A stretch of 64,000 nucleotides of DNA from Candidatus Woesearchaeota archaeon (GCA_018675335.1 JABGYH010000003.1:1-64000), one strand, 5' to 3'; positions 1-9,286 are shown, counted from the first letter of the stretch. Notes: generated by a model from the letters alone, not told the origin. Program-made: numbers and translations.

Positions 1-31
1 AAAACGAAAAGACGCAGGAGAATTAATTGGA

Positions 32-1588
32 GTGCACAGATACCCAAATCCAGAAACAGGACAATGGTATGGATTCCCAATAGAAGAAATAAATGAAGCA
101 CTTTCTCGAGGAGAAAAACTTTCAGAACAAATAGTAACATATGAACCAATAGAAGAAATTGTTAATACATTTAAATCAAAAGGCAACGTATGGACTTTAC
201 TTCACTTAATTCTTTTAGATGATATTAAATCAAGATTACTTGAAAGATCACCTGATGAAGCTCCAATTAGACTTGATCTAATGATTGAAACTTTAAAACA
301 ATATGTTGTTAATTACGCAAAGTTTGATAAAATTATTACAACTTATCCTAATAGATTATTAGAAGAAGACAAATTATATTTTGAACAAATGTTTGAATCT
401 GCACGAGGCAAACTTGCAACCCTAACTACCATTGATTCATTTAAACTTATGAATGAATGGGCAGAACAAAGAGAATTTATGCTTATATATTTCCCAGGAT
501 ATTATTATCATGTAGAAGAATATGCTCAAAATTACTTAAACACAATTATTGCGAATAAACCCCTCGAAGAAATTAAAGTACTCCCCTCTGTTAAAAAATT
601 TGATCAAAAATCATTTACTAGTTTTTACGTTCTTAACGCCCTTGCGGCAGAACTTGGATTACCCGAAGTAATTGATGATAACATCCAAAGCGTAAGAACA
701 ATTCTTAATGAATTAATTGAAGGAAAACCACTCAGCGAAGGAACTCCAGTAACAAAAGATTTACTGAAATTAATTTTTGATGATTTTTTAATGGGTGCAG
801 AAAAATATGCTAATGAAGATGAAGTTTTAGCAGCACCACCCCTAGAAATACTAGAAATACAATCTTCAAGAATGAGACTTGCATCAACAATAAGACAAGC
901 AGAATATTGTTTAAATGCAGATCTTAAAACGCTCGCACTTAGTGTCCCACTAACCCACTTAACAGAACTATATTTCAGACAATTAATGTATCTTGCATCA
1001 GACACCCAATTATTTACTAATCCAGATAAACATGTGAGCACACAAACCCTCCGAAGATATCCAGTTCAAAAAGCCCAAGAAATATTTGACTCATTAAGTG
1101 GTGGACGAACACCAGAATTAATCCAGAGAGCAAAAATAAAAAGACAGCTAATGCCAGTCCACATTTCAACACTCGTTTATGAATTAGATTTGTTTGCCAC
1201 ATTTCACGCAATTGCTGCAACCCACAATCAAGATGTCGCACTAAAAATGGAAGAAACAAGACTTGAAATGTCCAAAGTATTTGCAGGATACAGAGATATG
1301 ATTGGAACATACGGAATAGATAGAATAACTCAATTACAAGATGTTTGTTGGTTTTTAGAAGGAATTTCACAATTCATGTACAATTTTAACGATTCAACTC
1401 TGAAAGATGAAAGACATCCTTTTTTTTATATTGGAATAAGCATACCAGAATTTATTTCAGTTAATGGCTTTTTAAAACCCAAACCAGTAGCAGAACTTAT
1501 TAAATTTTACGATTTGAATTTAAAATTTTTTAAACAGGAAAGAACACTTCCAGATCTTGAAAAATTAAAATCTGAAGAGAAAAATTAA
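32..1588 (+). CDS. Hypothetical protein, possibly 5'-truncated
   Basis: I do not recognise this 518-residue protein. It looks soluble and largely helical, with no signal peptide, membrane segment or cysteine motif. A GTG at 32 follows GGAG at 17-20, which supports that start. The frame has no stop back to the window edge, however, so the true start could lie outside. The next gene begins 9 bases after this stop on the same strand, so co-transcription with the two leucine-rich-repeat/kinase genes is likely. That neighbourhood is the only clue to its role. Its strand and base composition match the two following genes. Confidence 0.7.
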   Translation: MHRYPNPETGQWYGFPIEEINEALSRGEKLSEQIVTYEPIEEIVNTFKSKGNVWTLLHLILLDDIKSRLLERSPDEAPIRLDLMIETLKQYVVNYAKFDKIITTYPNRLLEEDKLYFEQMFESARGKLATLTTIDSFKLMNEWAEQREFMLIYFPGYYYHVEEYAQNYLNTIIANKPLEEIKVLPSVKKFDQKSFTSFYVLNALAAELGLPEVIDDNIQSVRTILNELIEGKPLSEGTPVTKDLLKLIFDDFLMGAEKYANEDEVLAAPPLEILEIQSSRMRLASTIRQAEYCLNADLKTLALSVPLTHLTELYFRQLMYLASDTQLFTNPDKHVSTQTLRRYPVQKAQEIFDSLSGGRTPELIQRAKIKRQLMPVHISTLVYELDLFATFHAIAATHNQDVALKMEETRLEMSKVFAGYRDMIGTYGIDRITQLQDVCWFLEGISQFMYNFNDSTLKDERHPFFYIGISIPEFISVNGFLKPKPVAELIKFYDLNLKFFKQERTLPDLEKLKSEEKN

Positions 1589-1597
1589 AATAAAAAA

Positions 1598-4084
1598 ATG
1601 AATATCCGAGATTTAGTTAAAAAAAGATTATTTATTACTCGAGAAGGATTTGCATATATTCCTAAACGCGTAACTAGTTTAACTGGTTTAGATATGATAC
1701 CTCGAAATAAACTAGAGATTGAAGCAAATATTACAGATTATTCGGAATTAAGTTCTCCCAACTTAGTTGAAAGATTAACAGATTTAAGAATAACTAATCA
1801 CGGTGAAGTTAAAGGAAAAGGTTTCGAAACATTTCTTAAATCATTAGACCCTTTTAAATTAAAGTTGGAAAGTATTGCAAAATTAAAAAAATTAAGAACA
1901 CTTTCATTAGGATTTGAAGAATGTGGACTTCACTACTATGTGCCCAACCCAACACACAGAATTTGGGCTGCAGATCATTCATTTTTAGATTCGGATAATT
2001 TAAGAAAAACATTAGAAGAACTAGAAATTACTGCCTCAACAATAGATAGTTTGCAATTTTTGCAAGGATACTCATTAAGAAAAATTAAACTTACAGGATT
2101 GCCCAAACTAAAAAATACAGAAGGTTTAGATTCTCCATCAATCTTGGAAAGTCTTGAAGAACTAACAATCAAAAATACAGAAATAAAACAATGGGATTTT
2201 TTAAGAAGATATCAAAGATTGAGGAAATTAGTTTTACCAAACTATTCAACAAAACCAAATTTACATGCACTAAATAGCCCAAACTTACAATCAACCCTGA
2301 CTGAATTATATTTATGTGAAGAATTTAAAAGTTGGAACAATCAGAATCCGACAACACTATTCGAATTAGACTTTTTAAAAAAATATCAGCAACTTCAAAC
2401 ATTAGTTTTTTCAGGAAGTAACATTATAGACTTCAGTGGTTTAAGCTCTCCCAAACTTAGCAAAACTATTAAAAAATTAGTCATGTTTGATTTAGTAGAT
2501 CAACCTCTCCAAGTTTCTGATGAAACAATTAGATCGTTTAAAGAAGATACTGCAGATGATGATCGCACATTTAACCCTTACAGGGCATGGATTGAATTAT
2601 TAAGCACCCGAAAAGAAGCAATTATTTTTAATCTCAAGTTAATACAAGAATACGAAGCATTAGAAGAGTTAAGCTTAGGAAACTTGTGGGGAGTTAAAGA
2701 TTTTTCAGGATTACACAATCCCAATTACGCGAATACATTACGAAAACTTACCATAAATAGCGCACCATTTTTAGATAACGTAGATTTCTTAGACGGATAT
2801 ACTTTATTAGAAGAAATATGGATTAAAGATTTAGATAACAACTTTAGCGATAGAATAACCCCTCCTTTAAATGTCAGAGGATTGTCAAAACCAAAAGTTG
2901 CCACTAAGTTAAGAAGAGTTCACATTGACACTGACCAAGGAATTGCTGATTTTGATTTTTTACATAATTGTGAAATGTTAGACGAATTAGTTATTCGCGC
3001 ACGCAATAGATCTCAAACACCAATAAATTTTGAAGGACTTTGTAGTGCAAGTGTAGCTCAAACATTAACACATTTATCATTATTTGACTTTGACGGATTG
3101 GAGAATTTAGATTTCCTAAACAACTACAAAAAATTAGAAAGACTAGATTTATACCAAATTACAACTATAAAAGATCATTCTGCAATTGCATCAGAAGGAT
3201 TAGAACATACAGTGCGAGATGTTAGACTTCATTCATCAGGATTCTCAGACATAAATTTATTCAAAAATTATCAAAAATTAAAAAGACTGGACATAGGTTT
3301 AAGTTCAGTCAGAGATATTTCTAATCTACTTGAATTTGAAAGTGTTAAGAACGGAACATTACAATCAATAGAATTGCCAAAATATATTGATCTAATGAGG
3401 GTTAAAGATGGCAAATACGTAACTCAAGAAGTATTGCTAAATCTAAAAGCAAAAGGGATAAAAGTCAAAATTGGAGGGAAACTAGTTTTTGACGACAAAC
3501 ATTACAAATCTAAAGGTAAAGTATATGTTATTTGCGGACCCAGCGGCGCAGGAAAAACAACAATAATAAATTATTTAGAAGAAGAATTAAGTGTTAAAAA
3601 AGGAAGGAAAACTACAACTAGAGGTTATCGAAGCGAGGAAGAACGAACATCAAAAGTTATAACGTCTATAAACGATGACGAATATACCCAATTAGAATTA
3701 GAGGGAAAGCTAAAACTACAACATGATTTTTGTGGAAAAAAATATGGAATACACACAACTGATCTTTTAGAAGCACACACTACCGATCAAAAGTTTGTTT
3801 TTGATACTTGCGACATTGAATCTGCACTCGAATTAAAATCAGACTTTCCAGGACTTGTTGAATTAATTATACTTTTAACACCACCTCCTTTAGTTGAAAG
3901 AGGATTGATGAATCGACTTTCAAAATATCCTGCTAAAGCTCAAGAGACATTAAGAAGAATAGGGCAAATTCAAGAATCTGCAGAACAATTAAGAGCATAT
4001 AAAACCCGAGTTAATCACTTTGTTGCAGAACCGAGCTATACTGCAAATCTAAAAATCATAAGAGAAATTATATCTGGCAATTAA
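1598..4084 (+). CDS. Leucine-rich repeat protein with C-terminal guanylate-kinase-like domain (copy 1)
   Basis: This 828-residue protein has two parts. Residues about 60-620 are irregular leucine-rich repeats with a long period: a TLxxLxI strand, a DFLxxYxxLxxLxL strand and a DFSGLxSPxL turn recur. Residues about 640-828 form a P-loop domain with Walker A GPSGAGKTT at 647-655. It is followed by a KTTTRGYRSEEE stretch and a KKYGI stretch that resemble the GMP-binding segments of guanylate kinase. Start is ATG 1598, 9 bases after the upstream stop; the next gene starts 4 bases after this stop. There is no signal peptide, so it should be cytoplasmic. Activity on GMP is not established: the domain could be a true kinase or a binding module. 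The repeats suggest protein recognition. Confidence 0.85.
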   Translation: MNIRDLVKKRLFITREGFAYIPKRVTSLTGLDMIPRNKLEIEANITDYSELSSPNLVERLTDLRITNHGEVKGKGFETFLKSLDPFKLKLESIAKLKKLRTLSLGFEECGLHYYVPNPTHRIWAADHSFLDSDNLRKTLEELEITASTIDSLQFLQGYSLRKIKLTGLPKLKNTEGLDSPSILESLEELTIKNTEIKQWDFLRRYQRLRKLVLPNYSTKPNLHALNSPNLQSTLTELYLCEEFKSWNNQNPTTLFELDFLKKYQQLQTLVFSGSNIIDFSGLSSPKLSKTIKKLVMFDLVDQPLQVSDETIRSFKEDTADDDRTFNPYRAWIELLSTRKEAIIFNLKLIQEYEALEELSLGNLWGVKDFSGLHNPNYANTLRKLTINSAPFLDNVDFLDGYTLLEEIWIKDLDNNFSDRITPPLNVRGLSKPKVATKLRRVHIDTDQGIADFDFLHNCEMLDELVIRARNRSQTPINFEGLCSASVAQTLTHLSLFDFDGLENLDFLNNYKKLERLDLYQITTIKDHSAIASEGLEHTVRDVRLHSSGFSDINLFKNYQKLKRLDIGLSSVRDISNLLEFESVKNGTLQSIELPKYIDLMRVKDGKYVTQEVLLNLKAKGIKVKIGGKLVFDDKHYKSKGKVYVICGPSGAGKTTIINYLEEELSVKKGRKTTTRGYRSEEERTSKVITSINDDEYTQLELEGKLKLQHDFCGKKYGIHTTDLLEAHTTDQKFVFDTCDIESALELKSDFPGLVELIILLTPPPLVERGLMNRLSKYPAKAQETLRRIGQIQESAEQLRAYKTRVNHFVAEPSYTANLKIIREIISGN

Positions 4085-4088
4085 AAAA

Positions 4089-5735
4089 ATGACTGATTTA
4101 CCTCCAGGAGCAAAAGTAATTGCGCCACCAAAATTAGACGATGATGATTATTGGTTAGATGAACTTCCAATATCACTACACGATTACATAGCTCAAAAAG
4201 GAAAACAAGTAACTGAACAAACAGAATTGCATTTCCCACTACCTGTTCGAGGAGAATTAGAAAGTTTAGCTGGAATTGAACGATTTGTAAACTTAAATTC
4301 AATATTTTTTGATGGATATAATCATGAAGTTAGTTTACTCAATCACTCATTTCTTAGAACTCATATAAACGATATGACATTCGTTTTTGAACCAAGAAAA
4401 CACGTCGATGTTTGGTTTTTATCAGAATATGAAAAACTTAAAAGTTTAAGTTTAACAGGAGATGGACCTGAGCAATGGACTTGCAATTTTGGATTTTTAA
4501 AATCTCCAAATTTAATTAGAAGTGTGAAAAAATTAGTTTTAGGTTCTGTTGGTTCGACCAATTTTGAATACATTTCCCAATTAGAAAATTTAGAACAACT
4601 TGTAATACACTATTGTACCACTGCAGATGACTTTTCAGCTTTAGAAAGTGAAAAATTAAAAAGAAATCTCAAAAAAATCATAATTACCAATGCACCCAAA
4701 CTCACAGATTTAAATTTTTTCGACGGATATTCAAAATTACAGAGATTAAGAGTTTCGGAATGCCCTAATTTAACAGATTTTTCAGCATTAAAAAATAAAA
4801 AATTAGAACAAACAGTAACAGATCTAAGTTTATTTGGAACTTCTTTTTCAGAACTTGAATTACTAAAAAACTATCAAAAAATTGAAAAAATGGATTTAAC
4901 ACGAACTCATGTAAGAGATATAAGCGAATTAATAAATTATCCATTTGTAGAAAACGGTGCTTTAAAAAAATTATATTTGCCTGATGAACTGGACTTAATG
5001 TTAGTTAAAGATGGAAAACTAATAAATCAAGAAACAATTGCAGAACTAAAACGAAGAGGTGTTCAAGTCAATATAAAAATAAACTTCACCCCCCCAGAAA
5101 GATTACAGGGAAAAGTTTATGTTTTGTGCGGACCTAGCGGTGCTGGAAAAACAACATTAATAACTCAATTAACAAACGTCGAGGGAATAACTCAATTAGC
5201 AAAAACTAGTACTCGACCAAAAAGATCACAACAAGAAACAGAACACAAGTTACAAACTCTATCAGTCCCAGATTTTATATCAGATTTAAATGAAGGAAAA
5301 ATAAATGCAGGACACAAATTTTATGGACAATACTACGGTGTTCGAATGACTGACTTAGCAGATGCATACCTTTCAAAACAAACATACTTTCTTGACTTTG
5401 TTGAACCCGAGGCAGCATTTAAACTAAGAGAATCAAATAAAGGATTTGTAGAAGTAATATTATTATTGCCCTTCGCTAATTTAATCGAACAAGGATTACA
5501 ACAAAGACTTGAATCATTAAATTACTCATTAACAGATGTTACTGGATTTTTAGAACAAGTTAATTTAATGAAATCTGTTGAAGCAAATATTGTTAACACA
5601 GAAGAGCGAATAAGAAATATTGCTGAAGAATACAAAAGAATTTCGGCATACGCACCATACGCAGATCATGTTTTATCAGGACTTGATTATAAAGAAAATA
5701 TGAAACGAGTTATAAAAATAATGTCAAAACAATAG
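4089..5735 (+). CDS. Leucine-rich repeat protein with C-terminal guanylate-kinase-like domain (copy 2)
   Basis: A 548-residue paralogue of the gene before it, with a shorter repeat section (residues about 60-310) and the same C-terminal fold. Walker A GPSGAGKTT is at 348-356, followed by KTSTRPKRSQQE (the TTRxxR-like segment) and YYGVRMTDL (the YGxxxxDL segment also seen in copy 1). The junction sequences are alike in both copies (LPxxxDLMxVKDGKxxxQE), which points to tandem duplication followed by loss or gain of repeats. The gap to copy 1 is 4 bases, so the pair is almost certainly one transcript. The substrate and partner recognised by the repeats are unknown. Confidence 0.85.
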   Translation: MTDLPPGAKVIAPPKLDDDDYWLDELPISLHDYIAQKGKQVTEQTELHFPLPVRGELESLAGIERFVNLNSIFFDGYNHEVSLLNHSFLRTHINDMTFVFEPRKHVDVWFLSEYEKLKSLSLTGDGPEQWTCNFGFLKSPNLIRSVKKLVLGSVGSTNFEYISQLENLEQLVIHYCTTADDFSALESEKLKRNLKKIIITNAPKLTDLNFFDGYSKLQRLRVSECPNLTDFSALKNKKLEQTVTDLSLFGTSFSELELLKNYQKIEKMDLTRTHVRDISELINYPFVENGALKKLYLPDELDLMLVKDGKLINQETIAELKRRGVQVNIKINFTPPERLQGKVYVLCGPSGAGKTTLITQLTNVEGITQLAKTSTRPKRSQQETEHKLQTLSVPDFISDLNEGKINAGHKFYGQYYGVRMTDLADAYLSKQTYFLDFVEPEAAFKLRESNKGFVEVILLLPFANLIEQGLQQRLESLNYSLTDVTGFLEQVNLMKSVEANIVNTEERIRNIAEEYKRISAYAPYADHVLSGLDYKENMKRVIKIMSKQ

Positions 5736-5745
5736 AACAAAATAT

Positions 5746-5930
5746 AAAAAAAATTGTGCCCTGCAATCTCACACAACTGGTTACGCCCAGCTTGACATGC
5801 AAAAATGGTTTCGCATAAATGCTCAAGCCATTAGAAAAAAATTGTGCCCTGCCATCTCACTCTGTTTCACCGAATCTACATAAGTAGAACCTCGAAGAGC
5901 TTAAGGGACAGGGCTCAAAGCAATAGAAAT
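5746..5930. ncRNA. Candidate structured RNA with a duplicated block
   Basis: This gap has no ORF of note and is richer in G+C than its surroundings. A 26-base block (7 A, then ATTGTGCCCTGC, then a CATCTCAC or AATCTCAC ending) occurs at 5747-5772 and 5835-5860 with one mismatch. The segment GTGCCCTG of copy 2 (5844-5851) can pair with CAGGGCTC at 5909-5916 (7 of 8). Between them lies a perfect hairpin TCTAC-ATAA-GTAGA (5875-5888). Another hairpin, CTTGA/TCAAG, lies around 5790-5826. No known RNA family is recognised and the strand is undetermined. Confidence 0.35.
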
Positions 5931-8200: not shown

Positions 8201-9286
8201 ATGGTTAATGCGAAATTAAAAAAAGATAATATGAGAAACATAAGACGAACAATTCAACCTGGCGGCGGCAAACCCATCATTAGACCGCATGACCTTGAAG
8301 ATAAAACAAGACACAGCATATTAGTCGTAGCCTCAGAACACGACATAACTGATCATTATACCCAATACTTGTATCCAGAAGGATATGAACGAATATATAC
8401 TGCCAGCAGCGTTTTAGAAGCTCAAGATATTCTTGAAAGAACAATTCCCGACATAACTATTGTCGACTTAGATCGAAGATTTGAAGGTCCCGTAACAGGC
8501 ATTGAATTAATAGAACAAATTGTAATGGACTGGGATGTTCCCACAAATTTTTTAGTTGTTAGCGAAGATGTTGACACAATTACAACTGCAACCGATCAGT
8601 GGGCAATGGATTATATTTTAGCACCATTTGGACCACAAAACTTATGCTTAAGAGTAAAAAAATCAATTGTAGATTCAATCATTAGAAAAGGCTCAACAAC
8701 AGATTTACTAACTGGCCTCACCAATAAACAAGTATTTCTTGATCAATTACACAGAGAAATAAGCGGATTTCACAGAGATCCAAGTGAACCAGTATCAGTA
8801 GTTAGTTATGATATAGATCGGTTTAAAAGAATAAATGATACATACGGCCACGTAGAAGGAGATCGAGTTTTAATTGAAGTTGGAGCTCAAGCAAGAAGAA
8901 TTCTGAGAGCAAAAGATATTAAGTCAAGATGTGGTGGCGAAGAATTTGGAGTATTAATGGCAGGAACACCATTCAAATTTGCAAACTTAGGATATAATCG
9001 ATTTGCAGATTATTTTAGATCTAACCCTCAAAGATTAAGACAAAATGGAGGCCATGTTGACGAAATAATAACTTTTAGTGCAGGAATTGCAACACTTACT
9101 GAAGAAATATACTGCAACCAATTAGCAAAAATGTATGATTTAAAAACTGATGAAGGCGTGCGCGAAGTTGCGGAAAGAATGCTTGAGTGCGCAGATAAAG
9201 GATTATACTTTGTAAAAAAAAATGGACGAACTGGAGTCTATGAAGAAAACGCATTTGCATTACTTGACGAAATATTAGGCAATTAG
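8201..9286 (+). CDS. Receiver domain-GGDEF diguanylate cyclase-like protein
   Basis: 361 residues. Residues about 40-155 look like a response-regulator receiver domain: SILVVASEH, then TIVDLDRR with the candidate phospho-acceptor Asp, then FLVVSED and DYILAPFGP (the K position is changed to A/P-type sequence, so phosphotransfer is uncertain). Residues about 165-345 are a GGDEF domain. It has DLLTGLTN, the metal-binding DIDRFKRINDTYGH and the active-site GGEEF at 245-249, all intact, ending in ADKGLYFVKKNGR. An intact GGEEF predicts synthesis of cyclic di-GMP from two GTP. Such domains are common in bacteria and rare in archaea. ATG 8201 or ATG 8231 could be the start. No EAL or PilZ protein is seen in this window. 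Confidence 0.9.
   Translation: MVNAKLKKDNMRNIRRTIQPGGGKPIIRPHDLEDKTRHSILVVASEHDITDHYTQYLYPEGYERIYTASSVLEAQDILERTIPDITIVDLDRRFEGPVTGIELIEQIVMDWDVPTNFLVVSEDVDTITTATDQWAMDYILAPFGPQNLCLRVKKSIVDSIIRKGSTTDLLTGLTNKQVFLDQLHREISGFHRDPSEPVSVVSYDIDRFKRINDTYGHVEGDRVLIEVGAQARRILRAKDIKSRCGGEEFGVLMAGTPFKFANLGYNRFADYFRSNPQRLRQNGGHVDEIITFSAGIATLTEEIYCNQLAKMYDLKTDEGVREVAERMLECADKGLYFVKKNGRTGVYEENAFALLDEILGN

Follow-up and report, generated by a model that had tools for sequence, protein, structure and literature searches.

Tandem leucine-rich-repeat/guanylate-kinase-like proteins of a Woesearchaeota archaeon and the linkage of their family to an AbrB-PhoU-like regulator

We analyzed a stretch of 64,000 nucleotides (nt), referred to as the window, from a Candidatus Woesearchaeota archaeon (GCA_018675335.1, JABGYH010000003.1:1-64000). 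It forms the beginning of contig C3; the genome measures 1.7 Mb and is 97% complete. Our subject is a pair of adjacent genes, C and D, each encoding leucine-rich repeats (LRRs) followed by a guanylate-kinase-like (GK) domain, and the recurrence of multidomain GK genes beside a gene for an AbrB-PhoU-like transcription regulator. An earlier note on this DNA had proposed two adjacent LRR/GK-like paralogues at 1598-5735, and open reading frames (ORFs), Pfam, AlphaFold and Foldseek all bear this out (Table 1). C and D are 37% identical over 340 residues, which marks them as paralogues. The Pfam LRR_4 match in C exceeds its cut-off, and C contains 20 copies of the LRR motif versus 4.2 in shuffled sequences (maximum 12 of 1000), D eight versus 2.05 (maximum 7). 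The alternating spacing of the repeats gives a two-repeat unit of ~48 amino acids (aa).

The Pfam GK family, PF00625, is matched only below threshold in both proteins. We built a family profile from ten relatives, and its match to solved GMP kinases reached 5e-16. Structure prediction, which the earlier note had proposed as a check, yielded for D an AlphaFold model (predicted local distance difference test [pLDDT], 84.6) with an LRR solenoid followed by a GK fold. The GK part of this model superimposes on E. coli Gmk with a root-mean-square deviation of 2.0 Å over 181 residues (Z=21.3). By predicted fold, the P-loop domain of C and D is guanylate-kinase-like.

The earlier note had also placed an unknown protein just upstream. 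This protein can be assigned: profile matches show that its ORF (gene B), split over contig ends, encodes another GK protein, the third, in which the GK domain is N-terminal. Window positions 5-343, encoding the first 113 residues of the B fragment, match GK-model positions 62-174 (3.4e-9) and correspond to the second half of the domain; the end of contig C4 (174911-175036), where the P-loop of B lies, matches positions 3-51 (1.2e-8). A relative, G068 (G, C and L numbers are our handles for genomes, contigs and loci), carries an uninterrupted 646-aa B homologue (L027:7629-9569) that crosses the break point. C4 most likely joins C3; we base this on the continuity of the gene with its homologues, the contig ends having no exact overlap of at least 6 nt. 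The C-terminal region of B is mostly helical, with no recognized fold and no Pfam match outside the GK part; an AlphaFold model of a B-type protein from five sequences had a pLDDT of 45.6 and was not used. Upstream of B on C4 lies gene A, encoding a 527-aa protein with an N-terminal GK domain, and upstream of A the regulator gene. The genes follow one another on the same strand as regulator-A-B-C-D, with 62 nt between the regulator and A, an overlap of 11 nt between A and B, and gaps of 9 nt (B to C) and 4 nt (C to D); this looks like a single tight operon given the inferred C4/C3 join. The GK member has been multiplied to four genes here, which differ in their input domains.

Table 1. Coordinates of the genes and domains described (window positions unless another locus is named)
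Feature	Coordinates	Strand	Evidence
Gene B, 3' portion (528 aa; 5' end open at the start of the contig)	2..1588	+	Profile match; intact homologue
Gene B, start	L024:6906-7076, end of contig C4		Profile match
Gene C, LRR-GK protein	1598..4084	+	ORF, 828 aa; LRR_4 E=3.3e-8; TIGR03263 49.5 bits, under cut-off
LRR region of C (approximate), alternating ~22/26-aa repeats	1680..3460	+	Motif spacing, shuffles
GK-like domain of C, P-loop GPSGAGKTT	3512..4081	+	Family alignments, residue table
Gene D, LRR-GK protein	4089..5735	+	ORF, 548 aa; AlphaFold model
LRR region of D, residues ~45-330	4221..5078	+	AlphaFold model; VIA-align Z 22.6 vs LRR protein
GK-like domain of D, residues 340-548, P-loop GPSGAGKTT	5106..5732	+	Z 21.3 vs E. 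coli Gmk; profile match

The regulator probably combines two domains. Its N terminus is an AbrB/MazE DNA-binding domain (PF04014, 4e-8, above the cut-off), and its helical C-terminal part appears to resemble PhoU and archaeal PhoU-family regulators: a profile matches the PhoU homologue 1t72 at E=2.3e-4 and two more PhoU structures at ~1e-3, with Pfam PhoU unmatched. Unlike PhoU, the linked regulator carries the fused DNA-binding domain and is paired with GK or NUDIX genes rather than with a phosphate transporter. Of the order's 287 genomes, 261 have AbrB-PhoU genes, several in each (up to 8 scored); these apparently make up a large and little-studied paralogue family in these archaea. A gene of the Lrp/AsnC type adjoins or lies near the regulator in five genomes (G000, G044, G068, G049 and G052).

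GK profiles were searched against 287 genomes from the order and 279 from the phylum, and a regulator profile against the first of these two sets. A GK protein was called multidomain if the match lay in an ORF of ~300 aa or more, and linked if an AbrB-PhoU gene lay within ~3 kb; the regulator profile derives from linked copies, and the GK searches were blind to the regulator. Of 34 genomes carrying multidomain GK proteins, 32 had an AbrB-PhoU neighbor; G136:C88 and G179 (close to a contig end) did not. Of the 19 stand-alone GK genes whose flanks we inspected, over 0.4-5 kb, one (G091) had such a neighbor (Fisher p = 5e-11, with closely related genomes counted separately). A GK match of any kind was found in only 33 of the 287 genomes, and linkage covers many families of the order plus other families of the class (G317, G334 and G352). 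The 32 tabulated GK-regulator pairs comprise 24 convergent, 6 tandem and 2 divergent pairs; one of the divergent pairs (G062) reflects a pairing error of the script, the second GK gene of G062 being convergent. Eleven convergent pairs overlap by exactly 4 nt. We set this aside as a special feature, because stop codons share the palindromic TA and 4 nt is the natural minimal overlap of convergent stops.

Next to the linkage, the substrate-site residues distinguish these domains. In GMP kinase (yeast numbering), S34, E69 and S/T80 select guanine, and R38, R41 and Y78 contact the substrate phosphate. We mapped these positions, by reference to solved GMP kinases and E. coli Gmk, in 30 linked domains and 10 unlinked stand-alone domains. 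The linked domains retain the P-loop lysine K14 (30/30), R38 (29/30), R41 (30/30) and Y78 (28/30), and C and D carry all four. They have lost the guanine selectors: S34 is found in 2/30 (K in 20/30), E69 in 1/30 and S/T80 in 0/30, where position 80 is mostly V, I or L. C has K, L and I at positions 34, 69 and 80, and D has K, A and V. The unlinked stand-alone domains of the same archaea keep S34 in 8/10, E69 in 6/10 and T80 in 9/10. The sole linked stand-alone domain, that of G091, has linked-type residues (K34, I69, I80), an independent agreement of the linkage and residue criteria. Y50, presumably a further substrate-phosphate tyrosine, is Y in only 2/30 linked domains, and the phosphate clamp is therefore retained only in part. 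Since the guanine-selecting residues are gone and phosphate residues kept, GMP is an unlikely substrate. The NCBIfam guanylate-kinase model TIGR03263 scores C, D and A at 46-54 bits (D, 46.5), against a cut-off of 160. We accordingly dropped canonical Gmk as an identity, although fold, P-loop, R38, R41 and Y78 are shared with Gmk (PF00625, TIGR03263), which differs in keeping the three selectors and in not being fused to input domains. The earlier suggestion that the proteins regulate a nucleotide pool is weakened by the same selector loss and by scores more than 100 bits short of the cut-off.

The input domains on linked GK proteins vary among LRRs, CheY receivers and unrecognized ones. Searching other genomes, we found further LRR-GK fusions. 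G044 has a regulator, a NUDIX gene and three GK proteins, the last of which is an LRR-GK protein in which both domains exceed Pfam cut-offs (LRR_4 7e-14, GK 1e-10); SI047_bin88 (L083) and G317, whose contigs are equally long, have one LRR-GK gene, convergent with the regulator. In a wider collection of genome contigs, matches other than those on three archaeal contigs were bacterial gmk and ABC proteins and were rejected. CheY receivers (PF00072) occur in linked GK proteins of G029, G352 and G334 (9.5e-12 to 3.8e-19) and of G112 and G034 (1e-8 range); inspected by eye, the acceptor aspartate is at the expected position in G029, G034, G334 and G352 and is absent in G112. G068, with five GK proteins, has a regulator and NUDIX gene arranged as in G044, the NUDIX gene standing between the regulator and the GK array, and the regulators of G022, G138 and probably G262 have NUDIX-like genes at their flanks. 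These neighbors hint at a small phosphorylated ligand.

Other genes also occupy the position beside the regulator. Beside the regulator at L077, L080 and L081, the GK partner is replaced by double-length proteins of 443-476 aa with two related NUDIX-like halves and by a 214-aa single-unit relative. At L078 (G059:C43, 1136-5086), tandem proteins with a common 'LEPRIESSLLYTK..G...FVHD.YR.FF' adjoin an AbrB-PhoU regulator, apparently as a further array of diversified paralogues that occupies the place of the partner. In G035 (L030, 8277-10751), an LRR protein whose C-terminal domain is not a GK adjoins the regulator; this domain appears kinase-like by eye, of the APH/HipA type, and has no Pfam match.

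We tentatively favor, as quite possibly correct, a reading in which these are sensor-GK signaling proteins that act with a partner AbrB-PhoU transcription regulator, forming a chromosomal module in Woesearchaeota-type archaea. The input domain (LRRs here, CheY receivers or others in relatives) would recognize a partner or ligand. The GK domain would bind ATP via its P-loop and hold a phosphate-bearing ligand, probably not GMP given that the guanine pocket is gone, via the retained R38/R41/Y78 clamp. Ligand turnover or an ATP-dependent change of shape would be passed to the AbrB-PhoU protein, either by contact between the two proteins or by way of a small phosphorylated compound, and the AbrB-PhoU protein would then alter transcription. 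The earlier note's idea of a sensing module that joins recognition to nucleotide binding gains support from the LRR and receiver fusions and from the adjoining DNA-binding regulator. Three observations weigh against this reading: (i) GK and regulator co-vary weakly (mirror r=0.21, reached by 20 of 5000 permutations); (ii) the two genes of a convergent pair do not share a transcript, as those of an ordinary regulator-effector operon would; and (iii) the breadth of the regulator family implies that most of its members work without a GK partner. A more ambitious proposal, which we regard as doubtful, is a new archaeal signaling class in which exchangeable sensors act on a repurposed GK fold. This fold would produce or read a small phosphorylated compound, to be removed by NUDIX enzymes and sensed by an AbrB-PhoU transcription factor.

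The sensor-GK reading has to be weighed against four others. The one that survives best, though we consider it unlikely, is that the GK domain is a pure binding module of the MAGUK kind, without catalysis, for a phosphoprotein such as a phospho-receiver or the regulator, with the LRRs as a second protein-binding surface. MAGUK GK domains (Dlg, PSD-95) place the GK fold in multidomain signaling proteins, keep the GMP-phosphate residues and bind phosphoprotein (PMC3335814). The linked domains similarly keep R38, R41 and Y78 and have lost base-specific residues, and LRRs are typical protein-binding repeats. However, MAGUK GK domains lack ATP binding (PMC3335814), while every one of the 30 linked domains has the P-loop lysine. 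The S35-to-P hinge change that marks the transition from enzyme to domain is also absent, proline being found at position 35 in 0/30 (T in C and D).

Somewhat less probable again is an ordinary metabolic kinase that acts, in the manner of PhnN (ribose 1,5-bisphosphokinase, TIGR02322), on a phosphorylated sugar or nucleotide, and in which the fused domains would be allosteric and the regulator would control expression. E. coli PhnN shares the GK fold and an altered base pocket, with the same kind of changes (S34R, Y50H, E69L, S80V), and the PhnN model reaches 1.5e-13 in one linked protein. Yet scores for the PhnN and guanylate-kinase models are far below cut-offs (TIGR02322, 27.8 bits in C and 16.7 in D; cut-off 156), and R41, retained here, is S in PhnN. 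PhnN is, moreover, a single-domain metabolic enzyme of the phosphonate pathway, whereas four tandem copies with differing fused domains, together with the receiver fusions, resemble signaling.

We give little credence to an anti-phage or toxin-antitoxin-type system, in which the LRRs would serve recognition, the GK domain would be a toxin and the AbrB/MazE-like protein its antitoxin. AbrB/MazE DNA-binding domains are known in antitoxins, the regulator reaches 17 of the 55.9 bits required for 'doc_partner', LRRs with a P-loop recall the logic of NLR proteins, and the distribution is patchy. Against this, PADLOC returned only P-loop/AAA matches of 13-24 bits, all under 30, over the P-loop region, no STAND domain exceeded its Pfam cut-off, the convergent layout is not that of toxin-antitoxin pairs, and AbrB-PhoU paralogues are widespread without GK genes. 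Phage and viral-contig searches found no relative of these proteins, and the defence-like role raised by the earlier note is left without support. The least probable reading, a genuine GMP kinase array supplying GDP in archaea that lack a recognizable gmk, could appeal to the absence of any protein over the TIGR03263 cut-off in G000, G044, G068 and G317, where linked GK proteins are the best matches, but the guanine-contact residues are lost, the array is missing from most relatives, and the control archaeon M. jannaschii also has no match to this model, so that such absence gives no pointer to the array genes.

The LRR-GK fusion itself has a precedent, contrary to the earlier note's view that no characterized system has this arrangement. 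Eukaryotic LRGUK is an LRR-GK fusion (PMC4363142) with LRRs N-terminal to a GK-like domain in one chain, and its structure (PDB 9ijj) is the top Foldseek match of the D model. In contrast to C and D, LRGUK is a sperm/cilium protein with no tandem array and no regulator partner, and the family GK profile matches it at only 1e-4, more weakly than GMP kinases. We found no description of an archaeal LRR-GK module or its regulator link in open-licence PMC literature. The prokaryotic form and its AbrB-PhoU linkage appear undescribed, and the novelty lies in this module and partner, not in the fusion, because the latter is known from LRGUK. Signaling in DPANN archaea is nearly uncharted, and a gene pair recurring over many families offers a testable entry: an input domain swapped between relatives, consistently rewritten specificity residues in a kinase fold, and a partner transcription factor. 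An active GK domain may lead to a phosphorylated signal not seen before; an inactive one would mean that a GK enzyme was converted into a signaling domain independently in prokaryotes, as also happened in the animal MAGUKs.

Two further features lie downstream in the window. Just 3' of gene D, at 5736-5900, two near-identical copies of AAAAATTGTGCCCTGC(A/C)ATCTCAC stand ~100 nt apart in a region with no long ORF. At 8201-9286 (+), a receiver-GGDEF protein (PF00990 4.9e-29, PF00072 3.8e-9) is a putative diguanylate cyclase, a type that to our knowledge is unusual in archaea.

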